64,000 nt of DNA from Desulfococcaceae bacterium HSG8 (GTDB lineage: Bacteria; Desulfobacterota; Desulfobacteria; Desulfobacterales; 4be13): the NCBI GenBank assembly GCA_030378015.1, contig JAUCGG010000003.1:1-64000 (forward strand), in the 5' to 3' direction. How positions within the stretch are numbered: the first letter of the stretch is position 1; each line of letters begins with the position of its first letter. Below the pieces are notes generated by a model. That model worked only from the letters and a program-made list of their open reading frames with translations, was not told the DNA's origin and did not search any database. Positions 5,701-30,115 of the stretch are shown here, piece after piece. The position numbers were made by a program, and so were the translations under genes.

Positions 5701-6228
5701 ATGGAATCTGAAAATAAACCTTCAACAGCCAAAAAATGGGCAACATACGCTGCCGGATTAGGTTGTTTAGCAGGAGTCAATGCCGGGATAAAAGGGCATG
5801 TTGGTATTTTAGGAAGTGCTACCTTCGGACTAACAGTTGCTATGGCATTTGGGGTAGGTGTTTATATAATTGTTTTTATAGTAGTAAAAATAAGACAATC
5901 TGCTATATCTGCTACAGGCAATAGTGACGTTGATATTGATAATCAAACAAAGAAATGTCCATTCTGTGCAGAAATCATAAAATTTGAAGCAATAAAATGT
6001 AGGTTCTGCGGTGAAAGACTAGATTTGAAAGATTTGAAAGACTTTGATACTAAACATAAACAATCTGAACCATCGCATCAATTAAATAATACTGATAGTA
6101 TTAATATCAAGGTTGAAAATAGACCTGAGCTAACATTGTCGCAACGTCAATTTTCTGAAGATTTAAAACGATTAGAACGCCGAACTTTGGCTCGTATTAA
6201 ATCTATAAGGAATAAAGGAGGAAGCTAA
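5701..6228 (+). CDS. Membrane protein with cytosolic zinc ribbon, function unknown
   Basis: The 175-residue product has two hydrophobic segments (about 13-29 and 36-63), then a double CxxC zinc ribbon, CPFCAE (C86, C89) and CRFCGE (C100, C103), of the type found in UPF0547-like proteins. The C-terminal third is polar and ends with a basic helix (LKRLERRTLARIKSIRNK). A strong AGGAGG ribosome-binding site precedes the ATG. The zinc ribbon should lie on the side opposite the N-terminal hairpin. I can give no specific role. Confidence 0.7.
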   Translation: MESENKPSTAKKWATYAAGLGCLAGVNAGIKGHVGILGSATFGLTVAMAFGVGVYIIVFIVVKIRQSAISATGNSDVDIDNQTKKCPFCAEIIKFEAIKCRFCGERLDLKDLKDFDTKHKQSEPSHQLNNTDSINIKVENRPELTLSQRQFSEDLKRLERRTLARIKSIRNKGGS

Positions 6229-6611
6229 CCAGCCTCATAGAAGATTTCCGACTCGGCAGACTGAAGCCGGTTGTCTCGGAACTCGTATCTGCCGAAATTG
6301 AGGACGCTCCCGAACATGTGAAAAACAAATATGCCGAAATTCTCGCCCTCAGTCCGGAGATACTTGAAATTAACGAACAGGTTTTTGCGTTAGCCGATAT
6401 TTATCAGGAGCGGAATATTCTGACCCCGAAATTCTATGATGACGGAGTGCATATCGCATCCGCATCTGTGGCGGAGACAGATGTTCTTGTCAGTTGGAAT
6501 TTCAGACATATCGTACATTTCGACAAGATACGCATGTTCAACGCCGTCAATCTGGAACTCGGCTACAGGCAACTACAGATATATTCTCCCCCGGGAGGTG
6601 ACGACTTATGA
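6216..6611 (+). pseudogene. N-terminally truncated PIN-domain protein (VapC-like toxin remnant)
   Basis: The frame is open from 6216, but its first usable start is GTG at 6318. Residues upstream of that GTG (FRLGRLKPVVSELVSAEIED) still look like PIN-domain sequence. The downstream part keeps DDGVHIASASVAETDVLVSWNFRHI, which matches the DALHLAIASFHKMDYLLTWNCNHL block of the intact PIN protein at 10695. The first conserved acidic region expected near the N-terminus is missing, apparently lost where the previous gene (ending 6228) now abuts. A small partner gene overlaps its end by four bases (ATGA). Confidence 0.7.
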
Positions 6612-17877: not shown

Positions 17878-18044
17878 GGGTGTAATTAAAAGTGTTAGGA
17901 AGTCCTCGTTCCCAAACTCCGTTTGGGAACACACCTTGCCCTGGCAAACTCTGTTTGCCTGCAAAACGGAGTTTTGCCTGCAATTGCGTTCCCAAACGGA
18001 GTTTGGGAACGAGGACTGCTTACCTGACACTTTCAATTGCACCC
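17878..18044. repeat. Miniature inverted-repeat element, family A copy 2
   Basis: Ends GGGTGTAATTAAAAGTGT and ACACTTTCAATTGCACCC mark the copy. The interior has TTCCCAAACTCCGTTTGGGA and its inverse plus CAAACTCTGTTTGCC. The flanks share AGCGTAAC, with two extra bases on the right. Downstream to 18224 a separate set of GCTCCGTAGGAGC hairpins fills the spacer before the LolA-like gene. Confidence 0.82.
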
Positions 18045-18224
18045 CGAGCGTAACATATTTTTAGCTCCGTAGGAGCGATATATTTGTAGTAGTAGCACAA
18101 GAATCCATCTGTTTTTAAAGCTCCGTAGGAGCTTTGAAAACTATGTGGCTCCGGCTCCTGCTATAATATACCGCTCCTGACGAGCTTTTAAAAACCTGAT
18201 TATCCAGAAATAGGAGTTAAAAAA

Positions 18225-21001: not shown

Positions 21002-21172
21002 CTGGTGCAATTAAAAGTGTCAGGTACTCGGTCCTTGTTCCCAAACTCCGTTTGGGAACACACCTGCAGCTACCTGACATTTCAATGCAAAACCGGAGTT
21101 TTGCGGGGCAATCGCGTTCCCAAACGGAGTTTGGGAACAAGGACCGAGTACCTGACACTTTTAATTGCACCA
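21002..21172. repeat. Miniature inverted-repeat element, family A copy 3
   Basis: Ends TGGTGCAATTAAAAGTGT and ACACTTTTAATTGCACCA are perfectly inverted and extend inward through CAGGTACTCGGTCC. The interior has the shared TTCCCAAACTCCGTTTGGGA hairpin and its inverse. The 8-bp duplication CCGACAAC flanks it on both sides. This is the cleanest of the four copies. Confidence 0.87.
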
Positions 21173-21187
21173 CCGACAACTGACAAC

Positions 21188-21574: not shown

Positions 21575-21780
21575 GTGAAACGTGAGAGAAGTGAAAGGTG
21601 AGAGGTGAGAAGTGAAACGTGAAACGTGAAACATGAAACGTGAAACATGAAACGTGAAACGTGAAACGTGAAACGTGAAACGTGAAACGTGAAACGTGAA
21701 ACGTGAAACGTGATTTGTACACATATTTCACCTTTCACGTTCCATCTTTTCACGTTTCACGCATCACGTTTCACGCATCA
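21575..21780. repeat. 7-bp tandem repeat array (GTGAAAC)
   Basis: GTGAAAC heptamers run nearly perfectly from about 21612 to 21715, with looser copies either side and inverted copies (TTTCACGTTTCACG) at 21729-21780. Read on the minus strand it encodes FHVSRFTF-type peptides, a known artefact of this repeat. It separates the receiver gene from the symporter unit. Confidence 0.85.
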
Positions 21781-21794
21781 CTTCTCACCAATTT

Positions 21795-21881
21795 TTATCC
21801 CCAGAGTCCCCATCCGAAGGATGCGGTAAACAGAATACAAAACGTAACAATTCCTATCATCCAGATATCTTCAGCTTTCAT
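21795..21881 (-). CDS. 28-residue membrane peptide, symporter small accessory protein type (copy 2)
   Basis: A 29-codon gene starting ATG at 21881 with GGAGGT eight bases before it. The peptide begins MKAEDIWMIGIVTFC and ends ASFGWGLWG, one transmembrane helix. An almost identical peptide (I6 replaced by F) is encoded at 23971-24057 after the other symporter. Conservation at the protein level with DNA changes in third positions, strong ribosome-binding sites, and identical placement after each SSS gene show these are real genes. A role as small symporter subunit is inferred from this pairing. Confidence 0.8.
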   Translation of the reverse strand: MKAEDIWMIGIVTFCILFTASFGWGLWG

Positions 21882-21952
21882 TGAATGACCTCCGCTTCCG
21901 GCTGTCTGAGAATTGAGAATCCGCTTCGATTCTCAATTCCCAGTATAAAAAT

Positions 21953-23755
21953 TTAAGATTCCTTGACCACAATCATCTGCTCTTTATCTGCACGAGCAAT
22001 CTGTTCTTCATTTGTGGTGGACATTTCAGCCTTGAAGCAAAGGGCCCACATCATCACGACACCCAGGATCCACCAGAAAATCTGCCAGGACCAGATGGGC
22101 GGAAAACCGCAGAACTGGAAGGGTTGGCCGGTGCCGAAGAAATTTATCGTGCCGTTACCCAGAAGACATGCCGGGCCAATGGCAAAAACATACCACAGGG
22201 GAACTATGATCTTCATAGCACCCCGCCACTGTCTTCCGGCCGGACTAGGCGCATCAACGTCATCAAGCCATTTCCGTACTTCTGCCTGCCTTTCGATGGT
22301 TTCCTGGGTGTCTTTTATGCCCATGAATCTGCACAGGTATGCAACGGTAAGTCCTGTAAATGTGCCCCAGAATGCACAATGCATGGAGAGCGGGCTGGGC
22401 CATATTTTATAGGTGAGAAACACCGCCAGCATACCCGATATCACGCCGAGCATTGCTCCGACAGAAGGAAATCTGAAGCCCCATATAACGCCTGCCAGAA
22501 GCACATACATGACAAATCCGAACGCTGTTGCCAAAGCCCCCAGGATAACCAGAGCGGCTGTTGAGGTCAGTCCTACTGCCAGTGCTGCGATCGTAAGCAG
22601 GGTTGCCAGAATTCTGTTCACCCAGATCTGCTCTGCATCGCTCATGTTCTGTTTTTTGATATAACGCCAATAGACATCCCGCAGGAGGATTGATCCGCCT
22701 GTACCGATGTAAGGTGCTGCCGTGGAATGAATCGCGGCAATTGCTCCCATAAAAACAACTCCCAGCATGACCGGCGGCAGGAAGGTCTGCATCAGCAGCG
22801 GTACAACAGATTTATCTGTCAGTGCGGCAAATGTCGTATGGCCTGACATCTGCAATACTTTCGCTCCCATGCCCTGAAAAGCAGTAAAGAAGAACAGCGC
22901 GAATCCCACCACAAAGGTGGACATAAACGCCTGCTGCCAAGCAAGGGGTTTGGGAGATTTGATGCCGAATGTCCACATGGTAAACGCGGGAGAGGACTGG
23001 ATCCCCATCAGCGCGAACATATAGCTCAGAATCATAACACCTGTCCATCCTCCTCCGAGTCCCACATTAATGACCATAGGTACCTCAAGGAGTTTCTTAT
23101 CAATCGTGCTTACCTGTGCAGAGAACTTGCTCCAGCCGCCGAAATCTTTGAGCACATAAGCACCGAGAATGATGATACCTCCTACAAGGAGGATAAACTG
23201 GATTACGCCGACCCAGGTACTTGCTTTCAGACCGCCTGTACAGACATAAAACCACACGATGAACGCAAGAAAAATCGCGCCGAATGTGAAGTCAACCCCT
23301 GTGATTACGTTAAAGAGCGCACCGGCTGCCATAAGCTGAACCGCGGAATAAAACATGGAATACAACACCGCAGTGACCACAACCAGCCAGCGGATCACTT
23401 CATTGTTATAGTAATAGGCGTACATGTCGCCGGGGGTAATAAATCCGTATCTTTTGCCCAACAGCCATGTTCTCTTTGAAAAGAATGTTCCTGTAATAGG
23501 AATGGTGAGAACATAGAATGAGGCAAACGCATACGCGAGACCATCCCGCCAGATAAGGCCAGGATGGCCGATAAATGTCCAACCGCTGAAGGAAGCGGCT
23601 GTTGCTGCCATGAGAAAAGCAGCAAAAGGAATGGATCGGCCTGCAATCGCATAGCCAGCGGAGGTTTTTTCGGTGAAGTATCCCTTCAACCCCCAGTAAA
23701 AGCAGTAAATAATGTAAATCCCCAGCATGATGTAAACCCATGTGGTTCCAGTCAT
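21953..23755 (-). CDS. Sodium:solute symporter (SSS family), copy 2
   Basis: A 600-residue inner-membrane transporter with about 13 predicted helices, first YIMLGIYIIYCFYWGLKGYF. SSS hallmarks include TAASFSGWTFIGHPGL near the N-terminus, GGLKASTWVGVIQFILL and AAIHSTAAPYIGTGGSILLRDV. The C-terminal 90 residues are partly cytosolic and end EQMIVVKES. Relatives carry acetate and other short carboxylates with Na+; the acetyl-CoA synthetase upstream supports such a substrate. It is a tandem duplicate of the gene at 24082. Confidence 0.9.
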   Translation of the reverse strand: MTGTTWVYIMLGIYIIYCFYWGLKGYFTEKTSAGYAIAGRSIPFAAFLMAATAASFSGWTFIGHPGLIWRDGLAYAFASFYVLTIPITGTFFSKRTWLLGKRYGFITPGDMYAYYYNNEVIRWLVVVTAVLYSMFYSAVQLMAAGALFNVITGVDFTFGAIFLAFIVWFYVCTGGLKASTWVGVIQFILLVGGIIILGAYVLKDFGGWSKFSAQVSTIDKKLLEVPMVINVGLGGGWTGVMILSYMFALMGIQSSPAFTMWTFGIKSPKPLAWQQAFMSTFVVGFALFFFTAFQGMGAKVLQMSGHTTFAALTDKSVVPLLMQTFLPPVMLGVVFMGAIAAIHSTAAPYIGTGGSILLRDVYWRYIKKQNMSDAEQIWVNRILATLLTIAALAVGLTSTAALVILGALATAFGFVMYVLLAGVIWGFRFPSVGAMLGVISGMLAVFLTYKIWPSPLSMHCAFWGTFTGLTVAYLCRFMGIKDTQETIERQAEVRKWLDDVDAPSPAGRQWRGAMKIIVPLWYVFAIGPACLLGNGTINFFGTGQPFQFCGFPPIWSWQIFWWILGVVMMWALCFKAEMSTTNEEQIARADKEQMIVVKES

Positions 23756-23854
23756 TTTTTCCTCCTGTCAGTTAATAAAAACATTAATTATTACGGGACG
23801 TGAGAAATACTTTCTCACGGGCATCCTTCATTTGTCACTTTACAATTTAATGTG

Positions 23855-23915
23855 GATGCAGAACAATTTTTCAAATTGTTTTAAACAATTTGAAAAATTG
23901 TTCTGCAGCCGGAAA
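23855..23915. repeat. Hairpin between symporter units
   Basis: CAGAACAATTTTTCAAATTG pairs with CAATTTGAAAAATTGTTCTG around a short loop. It lies in the spacer between the 28-residue peptide gene (23971) and the second symporter start (23755) and may attenuate read-through or stabilise mRNA. Confidence 0.6.
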
Positions 23916-23970
23916 AATTGTAACTACTTTCAGCTTTTATGAAAGATGCCCTCACGTCCCGGGCATTCAT

Positions 23971-24057
23971 CTATCCCCACAATCCCCATCCGAACGATGC
24001 GGTAAAGAGGATGCAGAATGTCACAATTCCTATCATCCAAAAATCTTCGGCTTTCAT
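23971..24057 (-). CDS. 28-residue membrane peptide, symporter small accessory protein type (copy 1)
   Basis: Starts ATG at 24057, eight or so bases after GGAGGG, and ends TAG at 23971. The sequence begins MKAEDFWMIGIVTFC and ends ASFGWGLWG: a single hydrophobic helix with Trp-Gly-rich end. It follows the first symporter by 24 bases and so is almost surely in its operon. See the twin at 21795. Confidence 0.82.
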   Translation of the reverse strand: MKAEDFWMIGIVTFCILFTASFGWGLWG

Positions 24058-24081
24058 CAGTCTATTCCCTCCGTTTTGTAA

Positions 24082-25884
24082 TTAAGCTTCCTTTACAACA
24101 ATATTCTGCTCTTTGTCAGCACGCTCAATCTGTACCTCATTTGTGGTGGCCATTTCAGCCTTGAAACAAAGAGCCCACATCATCACGATGCCGAGAATCC
24201 ACCAGAATATCTGCCATGACCAAAGACTCGGAAAACCGCTGAATGAAAATGCGTTATTTCCTATGATACATGCCGGCCCGATGGCGAAGAAGTACCATAC
24301 CGGTACCACAATCTTCATAATCTTACGCCATTGTTTCCCGGAATCAGTCGGCTCATCAACATCCTCAAGCCATTTTCTCACCTCTGCCTGCCTCTGGCTG
24401 GTTTCCTCATCATCCTTGATTCCCGCGAATTTGCATATATATGCCGCCGCAAGCCCTGTAAATGTGCCCCAGAATGCGCAATGCATGGAGAGCGGGCTGG
24501 GCCATACTTTATAGGTGAGAAACACCGCCAGCATACCCGATATCACGCCGACCATCGCTCCTTTGGATGGAAATCGGAATCCCCATATCACTCCCAAGAG
24601 CAGGACGTACATGACAAATCCGAACGCGGTCGCCAAAGCTCCTAGGATAACCAGCGCCGCCTTTGATGTCAGCCCGACGACAAGCGCGGCAATTGTGAGC
24701 AGTGTTGCCAGAAGCCTGTTCACCCAGATCTGTTCCGCATCACTCACATTCTGCTTCTTGATATACCGCCAATAGACATCCCGTAAAAGGATTGATCCGC
24801 CTGTGCCGATATAGGGTGCTGCTGTGGAATGGATAGCGGCAATCGCTCCCATAAAAACAACTCCTAACATCACCGGCGGCAGGAATCTTTGCATAAGAAG
24901 CGGTACAACGGATTTATCTGTTAACTCGGCAAACCCCTCAACACCTGTCACCTGGAGAACCTTTGCTCCCATACCCTGGAATGCGGTAAAGAAGAACAGC
25001 GCGAATCCGACCACAAAGGTGGACATAAAAGCCTGCTGCCAAGCAAGCGGTTTCGGGGATTTGATGCCAAAAGTCCACATGGTAAACGCGGGAGAGGACT
25101 GGATACCCATCAGTGCGAACATGTAACTCAGTACCATTACCGCTGTCCATGCACTCTCCCCGGAGGCACCTCCGAGCCCGAAGTTTATCACTCTCGGCAC
25201 AGCCATCTGCTTGGGATCAAGCTTGGCAACTGCTGCGGAAAAGCCTGACCAGCCACCGAACATGGGATGGTTCACCACGTAAAAACCGAGGATAATGATG
25301 CCGCCCACGAGAAGTATGAACTGGATTACGCCGACCCATGTACTTGCTTTCAGCCCGCCTGTACACACATAAAACCACACGATAAAAGCAAGAAAAATAG
25401 CACCGAATTTAAACGGTACACCCGCGATCACATTAAAGAGCGCGCCGGCCGCCATCAACTGAACCGCAGAATAAAACATGGAATACAGAACAGCCGTGAG
25501 TACAACCAGCCAGCGGATGACCTCGTTGTTATAATAATAAGCGTACATGTCGCCCGGGGTAATAAACCCGTAACGTTTGCCTAAAAGCCACGTTCTTTTG
25601 GAAAAAAATGTTCCTGTAATGGGAATCGTGAGAACATAGAATGAAGCAAATGCATACGCCAATCCGTCCCGCCAGATCAGGCCAGGATGGCCGATAAACG
25701 TCCAACCGCTGAAGGAAGCGGCTGTTGCTGCCATGAGGAAAGCAGCAAAGGGAATTGATCTGCCTGCAATTGCATATCCAGCGGAGGTTTTTTCCGTGAA
25801 ATATCCTTTCAATCCCCAGTAAAAACAATAAATGATATAAATTCCGAGAAAAATATAGACCCAGGTGGTTCCACTCATTTTCAT
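24082..25884 (-). CDS. Sodium:solute symporter (SSS family), copy 1
   Basis: A 600-residue SSS transporter, very similar to the one at 21953. The most divergent parts are a loop (about residues 215-250, NHPMFGGWSGFSAAVAKLDP here against KDFGGWSKFSAQVSTIDK) and the stretch after EEVRKWL. All core motifs (SGWTFIGHP, GLKASTWVGV, AIHSTAAPYIGTG) are kept. The frame starts with ATG 25884 (MKM) or 25878; AGAAGGAGATG stands just before. It is 159 bases downstream of the acetyl-CoA synthetase, consistent with an acetate uptake operon. Confidence 0.9.
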   Translation of the reverse strand: MKMSGTTWVYIFLGIYIIYCFYWGLKGYFTEKTSAGYAIAGRSIPFAAFLMAATAASFSGWTFIGHPGLIWRDGLAYAFASFYVLTIPITGTFFSKRTWLLGKRYGFITPGDMYAYYYNNEVIRWLVVLTAVLYSMFYSAVQLMAAGALFNVIAGVPFKFGAIFLAFIVWFYVCTGGLKASTWVGVIQFILLVGGIIILGFYVVNHPMFGGWSGFSAAVAKLDPKQMAVPRVINFGLGGASGESAWTAVMVLSYMFALMGIQSSPAFTMWTFGIKSPKPLAWQQAFMSTFVVGFALFFFTAFQGMGAKVLQVTGVEGFAELTDKSVVPLLMQRFLPPVMLGVVFMGAIAAIHSTAAPYIGTGGSILLRDVYWRYIKKQNVSDAEQIWVNRLLATLLTIAALVVGLTSKAALVILGALATAFGFVMYVLLLGVIWGFRFPSKGAMVGVISGMLAVFLTYKVWPSPLSMHCAFWGTFTGLAAAYICKFAGIKDDEETSQRQAEVRKWLEDVDEPTDSGKQWRKIMKIVVPVWYFFAIGPACIIGNNAFSFSGFPSLWSWQIFWWILGIVMMWALCFKAEMATTNEVQIERADKEQNIVVKEA

Positions 25885-26043: not shown

Positions 26044-28080
26044 CTAATTCTGAACCATTTTTGTAATCTCCTCAACAACTTCCGGATTTGCCAGCGTCAT
26101 GGTGTCCCCTACATCGCCCTTGTTCGATATGGCTCCGAGTACCCTGCGCATGATCTTCCCGGAACGGGTCTTGGGCATGTCAGGCACAATCCAGACCTTT
26201 CTCGGCCTTGCAATCGCGCCGATCTCATCCACAATAGCCTTGGATATCTTGGCAGCAATTTCGTCGCTGCCCTCAATCCCGGGCTTCAGAGCAACATACA
26301 GATCCGGCTCTATACCCTTGATATCATGCTTAACCGGAACAACAGCCGCCTCCGCCACTTCCTGTACAACCAAGGCAGCAGATTCGAGCTCCTTGGTTCC
26401 CAAGCGATGGCCTGAAACATTGATCACGTCGTCAATCCGGCCCAGGATACGGAAGTAACCGTCTTCTGCCTCGACTGCGGCATCACCGGTGAGATAGGGC
26501 CAGTCCTCCCAGTTCTTGCTGTTCTTATCCCTGCAGTACCTTTCATAATAGGTTGACACAAAACGATCTCGGTCTCCCCATATGGTCTGGAATCCGCCGG
26601 GCCACGGGTTCCTGATGCAGATGTTCCCGGCCTTGCCCGCGCCCGCAGGAAGCTCTTTCCCCTCATCATCATAGATGACCGGATGAATTCCGGGCATTCC
26701 GGGGCCTGCGCTGCCGGGCTTCATGGCTTTAAGTGCAGGAATCGTGCTGCACAGGAAGCCGCCTGTCTCTGTCTGCCACCAAGTATCCACGATGGCTGCC
26801 TCACCTCTTCCCACAACATTATAGTACCACTTCCAGACTTCGGGTTCGATGGGTTCGCCCACTGTGGTCATGTGTTTGAACTTGTAGTTGTATTTCGCGG
26901 GTTCATCGGGCCCGACTTTCCTCAATGCACGGATAGCAGTGGGTGCGGTGTGGAAGATGTTGACATCCAGATCCTGGGCAATCCGCCAGCAGCGTCCTGC
27001 ATCAGGATAGGTGGGAATTCCTTCATAAATTACGGTGGATGCGGCCAGGGCCAGGGGGCCATAAACAATGTAGGAATGGCCCGTGATCCATCCGATATCT
27101 GCCATACACCAATAGACATCTTCGGGATGAATGTCCTGCACAAACTTGGATGTGCCGGTAACGTAAGCAAGATAGCCGCCTGTGCCGTGCTGACAGCCTT
27201 TGGGCTTTCCGGTCGTACCACTGGTGTACATCAGGAAGAGCGGTGCTTCGGCCGGCATTCTGACCGGCTCAACTATTTTCCCGTAATAATTCTTCAGCAC
27301 GTCATTGGTAAAATAGTCAAGACCTTCAACCATCGGCGTCGGAGTTGAGTTTTTCCCCGGATAGCGCTGCCATACCAGGACTTTATCAACGGTCTGCCCC
27401 GCTTTTTTGGCCTCTGCAACCGCTGTATCAGCCTTTTCCTTGTGGTCAATAAGCTTGCCGCCGCGGTAATAAGAGTCCGCCGTGATCAGAACATTGCTTC
27501 CGGAATCCACGATTCTGTCTGCACAGGATTTGCCGCTGAAACCGCCGAACACCTGGGAGTGAATCACCCCGAGCCGGGCACAGGCCAGCATGGTGACGGG
27601 AAGATCAGGGGTCATCGGGAGATGAAGCGTAACACGGTCTCCTGCTTTCAACCCGCAAAAATCCTGCAGAAGCGCGGCCATCTCGTTCACCCTTACATAA
27701 AGCTCCTGAAAGGTGACATGCTCGGTCTTTTCTTCTTCAAGTTCCGGGACAAAATGGATGGCTGTTTTGTTTTTGTGCTTGGCAAGATGCCTGTCCACAC
27801 AGTTATAGCTAGCATTGACCTTTCCGCCCACAAACCATTTCCAGCAGGGTGCGTCGCTGGTATCAAGGATTGTGTCCCAGTACTCATACCAGTCAAGAAG
27901 ATCGGCATACTCCTTGAAACAGTTAGGAAAGTTATCCAGACTGAACCTTTCATAAATTCCCGAGTCCGTCATATTCGCTTGGGCAATAAACTCTGCAGAC
28001 GGCTCATAATAAGCCTCTTCTCCCCAATGAACAGCAATCTGAGCTTCTGATGTTTCTACAACTTCTTTTTTTTCTGCCAT
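26044..28080 (-). CDS. acs: Acetyl-CoA synthetase (AMP-forming)
   Basis: Makes acetyl-CoA from acetate, ATP and CoA in the cytosol. At 678 residues it has the normal length. The acyl-adenylate motif YTSGTTGKPKG is at 285-295, the second core DTWWQTETGG follows, then YLTGDAAVEAEDGYFRILGRIDDVINVSGHR with the hinge region, and the catalytic Lys in KTRSGKIMRR near residue 645. This Lys is the usual acetylation site for control. The N-terminal 20 residues are longer than in E. coli. It is transcribed with the TetR gene (78-base gap) and ahead of the symporters. Confidence 0.96.
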   Translation of the reverse strand: MAEKKEVVETSEAQIAVHWGEEAYYEPSAEFIAQANMTDSGIYERFSLDNFPNCFKEYADLLDWYEYWDTILDTSDAPCWKWFVGGKVNASYNCVDRHLAKHKNKTAIHFVPELEEEKTEHVTFQELYVRVNEMAALLQDFCGLKAGDRVTLHLPMTPDLPVTMLACARLGVIHSQVFGGFSGKSCADRIVDSGSNVLITADSYYRGGKLIDHKEKADTAVAEAKKAGQTVDKVLVWQRYPGKNSTPTPMVEGLDYFTNDVLKNYYGKIVEPVRMPAEAPLFLMYTSGTTGKPKGCQHGTGGYLAYVTGTSKFVQDIHPEDVYWCMADIGWITGHSYIVYGPLALAASTVIYEGIPTYPDAGRCWRIAQDLDVNIFHTAPTAIRALRKVGPDEPAKYNYKFKHMTTVGEPIEPEVWKWYYNVVGRGEAAIVDTWWQTETGGFLCSTIPALKAMKPGSAGPGMPGIHPVIYDDEGKELPAGAGKAGNICIRNPWPGGFQTIWGDRDRFVSTYYERYCRDKNSKNWEDWPYLTGDAAVEAEDGYFRILGRIDDVINVSGHRLGTKELESAALVVQEVAEAAVVPVKHDIKGIEPDLYVALKPGIEGSDEIAAKISKAIVDEIGAIARPRKVWIVPDMPKTRSGKIMRRVLGAISNKGDVGDTMTLANPEVVEEITKMVQN

Positions 28081-28157: not shown

Positions 28158-28790
28158 TTATTTCCTTATCCCGCGTCCGAATATTTCGAATGCGGTTTCA
28201 AGAGTTTCCTTAAGGTAGTTCTTATCATCATCAATCAGGCGTTTGCTCTCTTCCCAAAGAACAACACCTGAAAATATCGCCCATACGATGTCTGCGAGGG
28301 CCACAGGATGTTTATCTATGAAATCTCCTTTTTTTATTCCCTCATCAAATATTTTTGACATCAGGTTTAATGAGTTCCGGGATAATTCTTTGAGATCGGC
28401 AAGTAGCTGAGGAGATAAATTCTTCAAGGTATCACTGGACTGGAGGTGGAACATGTTGATCAGTATCAGGGGATCAAATTCATAAACATCATACATGATA
28501 TCCCTCAGTTCCCCGATCCTTTCGTCAGCCACGAACTCCTTTTCATCGTTTACCAGATGTTCCAACCTGAGATTCAGATATTGGAGGATTCTGATGGAGA
28601 GGGATGAAAACAGTTCATCCTTATTTTTGAAATAGAGATAGAGAGTGCCGGGACTGAGTTCCGCCTCCTTGGCAATATCTTCCATTGTGGCCTTGTTAAA
28701 GCCCCTGACAGAAAAGACTCTCTTTGCAGCAACCATTATCTGCTGACGTCTTCTTTCCCTTTCCCGCTTTTTTCTTTCCTGTATTCCCAT
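28158..28790 (-). CDS. TetR/AcrR-family regulator
   Basis: A 210-residue regulator. The N-terminal HTH (about residues 15-62) shows [46 protein letters not shown], the classic TetR pattern. The C-terminal half is all helical and would bind a ligand. It lies directly upstream of acs on the same strand, so it probably controls the acetate unit and itself, with an acyl-CoA or fatty acid as a plausible ligand; this is inferred. The AT-rich upstream region (28800-28900) may hold the promoter. Confidence 0.88.
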
Positions 28791-29890: not shown

Positions 29891-30085
29891 CGGGTGCAAT
29901 TAAAAGTGTCAGGTGAAGCCGCCGTCAGTCCTCGTTCCCAAACTCCGTTCGGGAACGCGATTGCCCGCAAAGCTCCGGTTTTGCATGAAATGTCAGGTAT
30001 CTGCAAACAGAGTCTGCCTGCAAGTGTGTTCCCAGACGGAGTTTGGGAACAAGGCTGAAGTACCTAACACTTTTAATTACACCCC
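29891..30085. repeat. Miniature inverted-repeat element, family A copy 4
   Basis: Ends GGGTGCAATTAAAAGTGT and ACACTTTTAATTACACCC are inverted; interior hairpins TTCCCAAACTCCGTTCGGGA and CAGACGGAGTTTGGG follow the family plan with the order of inner blocks altered. CGCCTACC, 8 bases, is duplicated at both sides. It lies between the 3' end of the chemoreceptor gene and the older repeats. Confidence 0.83.
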
Positions 30086-30115
30086 GCCTACCCTACATTT
30101 TCGGGTATTTTATTT

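Follow-up and report, generated by a model that had tools for sequence, protein, structure and literature searches.

A 28-residue single-helix peptide encoded directly downstream of one clade of bacterial SSS symporters and its candidate role as a transporter subunit

In one clade of bacterial SSS symporters, the symporter gene and the gene for a 28-residue hydrophobic peptide occur together, and the linkage of the peptide gene to the 3' side of the symporter gene is near-obligate. SSS proteins are sodium/solute symporters, and the clade belongs to sulfate reducers. From sequence, we consider it probable that this peptide is translated on its own, as a single-helix membrane protein, and serves as a dedicated small subunit of this one SSS clade.

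A tandem symporter-peptide locus

The window, namely the whole stretch of 64,000 nucleotides that we analyzed, hosts two tandem SSS genes downstream of acs (Table 1). The first-pass annotation had described each of them as followed by a gene for a 28-residue peptide, with one residue differing between the two peptides. Coordinates and translations confirm this arrangement, with residue 6 (F or I) as the sole amino-acid change. The first SSS gene starts 159 nt 3' of acs, and the two peptide ORFs lie 24 nt and 71 nt 3' of the stop codons of the first and second SSS gene, respectively. At the nucleotide level the SSS genes are approximately 79% identical, and their products score 123.8 and 126.2 bits against PF00474, the gathering score of which is 22.8.

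Table 1. Features of the symporter-peptide locus in the window (SD, duplex energy in kcal/mol)
Feature	Position	Strand	Remarks
TetR-type regulator	28158..28790	-	PF00440; 5' of acs, synteny kept in close relatives
acs, AMP-forming acetyl-CoA synthetase	26044..28080	-	PF00501, PF13193, PF16177
SSS symporter gene 1, 600 aa	24082..25884	-	PF00474, E 2e-36; relatives 84-90% identical
28-aa peptide gene 1, MKAEDFWMIGIVTFCILFTASFGWGLWG	23971..24057	-	homologs in the order; SD -10.0
SSS symporter gene 2, 600 aa, tandem paralogue	21953..23755	-	PF00474, E 1e-35
28-aa peptide gene 2, MKAEDIWMIGIVTFCILFTASFGWGLWG	21795..21881	-	96% identical to peptide 1; SD -10.2

The two peptide genes differ at 12 nucleotides. 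Ten of these differences are synonymous and the remaining two, both in codon 6, are non-synonymous, which gives a pN/pS of 0.05. The selection that had been argued from such silent changes is strongly supported, and it extends as purifying selection to the homologs described below. The ribosome-binding sites had also been called strong, and they are: the mean SD energy at random sites is -2.9 kcal/mol. The window contains 134 ORFs of 24-32 codons that begin with ATG; only four of them have an SD energy below -9 kcal/mol, and two of these four are the peptide genes.

Several repeats lie in and around the locus. Directly 3' of the second peptide gene, GTGAAAC, a 7-nt repeat, and its complement form arrays (21575-21788) that extend into the upstream part of a response-regulator ORF. 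A palindromic repeat based on GTTCCCAAACTCCGTTTGGGAAC is dispersed, with copies at 17896-18046, 21003-21174 and 29925-30086; its arms at 21003-21172 are 57 nt long and perfectly paired. Between the first peptide gene and the second SSS gene (about 23857-23905) there is a long A+T-rich palindrome formed by GAACAATTTTTCAAATTGTTT and its complement, and a similar piece is found on contig C116 of the same genome (L032, near 8030).

Coding signature and conservation of the module

We compared 73 complete peptide coding sequences, derived from 71 loci and the two window copies. All 73 are exactly 28 codons long, and they start with ATG (71) or GTG (2). Their pN/pS is 0.11 for pairs with 90-100% identity and reaches 0.26 for those with 70-80%, whereas the alternative frames return values of 1.4 (+1) and 2.0 (+2). 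Variability at the three codon positions is 0.79, 0.59 and 1.40 bits, and therefore highest at the third. The mean SD energy of the peptide genes is -9.8 kcal/mol, compared to -2.9 at random sites, and 96% of them fall below -7 kcal/mol, compared to 8% of random sites. The peptide genes are under purifying selection.

At the protein level, M1, G25 and G28 are invariant, E4, D5, F14, F22 and G23 are kept at 90% or above, and the C-terminal G-x-G-x-x-G is conserved. The mean Kyte-Doolittle value over residues 6-24 is 1.8-1.9, as for a single hydrophobic helix. Positions 18 and 27 form an anticorrelated pair, being F/W or W/F in 64 of the 73 sequences, apparently a size exchange within the helix.

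To measure how widely the module occurs, we relied on two surveys. Within 58 genomes of the same order, the peptide was detected in 22 (E <= 5e-6), with a weaker, syntenic match in G044 besides, and homologs of the window SSS in 23 (E <= 1e-100). Nearly all peptide matches lie directly 3' of such a homolog and have an ATG start, a strong SD and 28 codons. SSS and peptide are found together in 22 genomes of the order. A single genome is SSS-only, and its SSS gene is cut by the contig end (G007). A single genome is peptide-only (G002): a short SSS remnant lies between acs and the peptide, and the 28-mer behind it is intact and has a strong SD (L178, 4341-4853, minus strand); acs and the TetR gene are conserved at this decayed locus.

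In the wider survey, we scanned 84,980 species genomes with an SSS alignment and obtained 80 related SSS loci. They belong to Desulfobacterales and other Desulfobacterota-type genomes, plus one MAG labelled SAR324 and one Nitrospinota, and their carriers include the cultured species Desulfosarcina widdelii, D. alkanivorans, Desulfatitalea alkaliphila and Desulfofustis glycolicus. The first-pass annotation had made its reading depend on conservation beyond the two window copies. This conservation is found, as the peptide lies directly 3' of the SSS gene in 73 of the 80 loci, and the symporter-peptide module is strongly supported. Five of the seven remaining loci are cut by contig ends, either with less than 45 nt of sequence 3' of the SSS gene (L065, L077, L100 and L113) or inside the peptide gene (L125). 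As for the other two, in L106 (genome G035) the peptide lies on another contig, while L120 has a clade SSS without peptide; the other SSS of that MAG (L104) does have one. Over 74 pairs, the peptide gene starts a median of 33.5 nt after the SSS stop codon; two of the 74 values are near 3 kb and were apparently counted from a second SSS gene (L082 and L091).

The module can decay, as indicated by L120, by the remnant in G002 and by a third, broken peptide copy on contig C116 of the window's own genome (L032, about 6130-6360, minus strand). This copy has no SSS gene nearby, and an insertion of roughly 130 nt splits its N-terminus, MKPED, from the rest of the helix. Since L120 and L106 have no adjacent peptide, the peptide is not strictly indispensable.

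Peptide and symporter also diverge together (rho 0.47, with none of 200 permutations as high). Where one genome has several SSS paralogues, as in Desulfosarcina widdelii and D. alkanivorans, each has its own peptide type, and this type resembles that of the nearest SSS relative and not that of the genome neighbour. Two loci whose SSS is 61-62% identical (L142 and L143) still have a 28-mer of the same plan; judged by eye, the gene after it resembles CBS plus nucleotidyltransferase (DUF294-like). Downstream of SSS genes at 41-50% identity (L151-L156), no peptide-like ORF was found where the 3' flank is readable (64 nt in L154, 180 nt in L155-L156).

Sixty-four loci have sufficient upstream sequence to look for acs, and 46 of them have a same-strand acs-family gene less than 700 nt 5' of the SSS gene. 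This neighbour points to a short-chain acid, acetate for instance, as the substrate, and the SSS clade probably transports acetate or another short monocarboxylate activated by acs. Operons of acs and SSS genes for acetate are found in Haloferax and E. coli (PMC7746861). As acs is absent at several peptide-bearing loci, the peptide goes with the SSS and not with acs.

Possible roles of the peptide

The frame is continuous from SSS to peptide in 24 of the 74 pairs, which is the one third expected by chance. This excludes the peptide as a read-through tail behind the SSS stop codon and suggests that it is translated independently of the SSS. Purely as a modelling device, we folded with AlphaFold the SSS-TAA-peptide read-through of the window. 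In this model the peptide forms a helix at residues 610-630 with a pLDDT of about 50-60 and has no reliable contact with the SSS; within the modelled SSS itself, a C-terminal helix spans residues 551-573. When compared to SGLT2 from an SGLT2-MAP17 entry, the window SSS model aligns over 510 residues (Z 27.8, rmsd 3.9). This comparison, in which the alignment covers the SSS and not the peptide, places the protein among SSS structures. A tree-based search for co-change between peptide and SSS positions returned a best z of 4.9 among 5859 pairs, with no helix clearly enriched.

In the mechanism that we propose, the peptide would be translated separately and would insert in the membrane as a single helix beside the transporter. 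It may then bind the SSS and aid its folding, stability or movement, much as MAP17 does for SGLT2. The resulting transporter would probably take up acetate or a short monocarboxylate, to be activated by acs. The genomic association is firm; cellular translation, membrane insertion, SSS binding, a stabilising role and the substrate are what we infer. Of the roles that the first-pass annotation had suggested, stability (or assembly) seems likelier than substrate range, because the peptide accompanies SSS paralogues both with and without acs.

The peptide could also be a regulated modulator that either shields the SSS against proteolysis or targets it for proteolysis, or that alters its activity or substrate choice in the style of MgtU, MgtR and AcrZ, although we hold this to be unlikely. 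One-helix transporter regulators of 28-31 aa are indeed known (PMC10710835), and with its own strong SD the dose of the peptide could be set apart from that of the SSS. However, in nearly every genome the peptide is encoded right behind its target. Known one-helix regulators of transporters, instead, are often encoded elsewhere and respond to other signals.

A quite improbable reading is that of a helper for insertion or early folding, which departs once the SSS is in place. Such a helper would be well served by being translated immediately behind the SSS, probably on a shared message, but this reading leaves the conserved C-terminal G-x-G-x-x-G without a reason, and we know of no precedent for a helper in the form of a dedicated 28-mer. 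We give very little credit to a small hydrophobic toxin of type I adjoining SSS genes by chance: size and hydrophobicity are similar to those of known one-helix toxins, but in many families and paralogues the peptide gene keeps a fixed position 3' of a single SSS clade, which speaks against it. Finally, a location flanking a gene on its 3' side would suit a non-coding element, such as a 3' UTR structure or a regulatory RNA that stays open by chance, but this reading is refuted by the coding signature, with its third-position variability, a pN/pS far below 1 in the peptide frame only, and the conserved start codon and SD.

If the peptide is indeed a dedicated subunit, such a micro-subunit would change the way in which this SSS clade is expressed and assayed, as heterologous expression without the peptide may fail. 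With the module, SGLT-MAP17 would also gain a minimal model in bacteria, and annotation would gain a small-protein family that it has overlooked. The module is testable because several carriers, among which the four species named above, are cultured.

Comparison with known families and transporter partners

The first-pass annotation had stated that most gene finders skip peptides of this kind, and our data strongly support that this one has been overlooked. Prodigal, a common gene finder, has a default minimum of 90 nt, and 28 codons plus stop amount to 87 nt; falling just under this limit would explain the absence of the peptide from annotation. It is absent from Pfam and NCBIfam as well. The window peptides have no match in Pfam-A over the gathering score, other members have only scattered matches there (all E > 0.009), and no NCBIfam model exists for our set of 76 peptides. 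Weak NCBIfam matches to NGO_0222_fam and spr0155_permease (best E 0.0024) look like the result of common hydrophobic-helix composition. We found no description of the peptide in the open-access literature.

NF045580, the 'symporter small accessory protein' (symport_access), is a similar case: it is a short one-helix protein, its gene adjoins an SSS gene, and it is also present in this phylum. We rejected the identity of the two, given the lack of a model match, the different SSS and the opposite side of the gene. Searched against the genome of the window (E <= 10) and against the 76 peptides (criterion > 35 bits), the NF045580 model has no match, and hhalign between the peptide and NF045580 aligned 2 columns with a probability of 1.2%. 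The NF045580 members found here have about 50-60 aa, a YGxxxW motif and an acidic tail, whereas the peptide has 28 aa. Their gene lies 5' of the SSS gene and that of the peptide lies 3'. The SSS associated with NF045580 is only about 22-31% identical to the window SSS, and NF045580 occurs in other families. Sodium symporters (SSS, NSS) also have small membrane proteins such as DUF4212, YjcH/DUF485, YhdT/DUF997 and MetS encoded next to them. All are longer than 28 residues, and their models are absent from the Pfam and NCBIfam matches of the 76 peptides.

In size, the peptide is like MgtU, MgtS, MgtR and AcrZ, single-helix proteins of 28-49 aa that bind or tune transporters; MgtU, with 28 aa, shields the MgtB transporter from FtsH (PMC10710835). 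The transporters and sequences of these four proteins and of KdpF differ from those of the SSS-peptide module. KdpF is another single-helix small partner of a transporter, and to our knowledge none of the five partners an SSS.

As a rule, SSS carriers of bacteria are regarded as machines made of one polypeptide. The words subunit, accessory and MAP17 are all absent from a review on prokaryotic SSS transporters published in 2021 (PMC7918813). By analogy, MAP17 on SGLT2 is the closest structural precedent for the peptide: MAP17 (PDZK1IP1) on human SGLT1 and SGLT2 joins one transmembrane helix to a transporter of the SSS/SLC5 fold, as is predicted for the binding of the peptide. MAP17 differs in being longer, eukaryotic and encoded elsewhere than its transporter. 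On SGLT2, the one helix of MAP17 is bound to TM13 and is counted as belonging to the fixed scaffold (PMC10803289). On balance, and with somewhat less confidence than we place in the subunit role itself, we favor the view that these peptides form a family that had not been described before, that of obligate 28-residue subunits of bacterial SSS, missed below the length limit of gene finders. They would be perhaps the shortest partners of an SSS and a bacterial counterpart of the SGLT-MAP17 pair.
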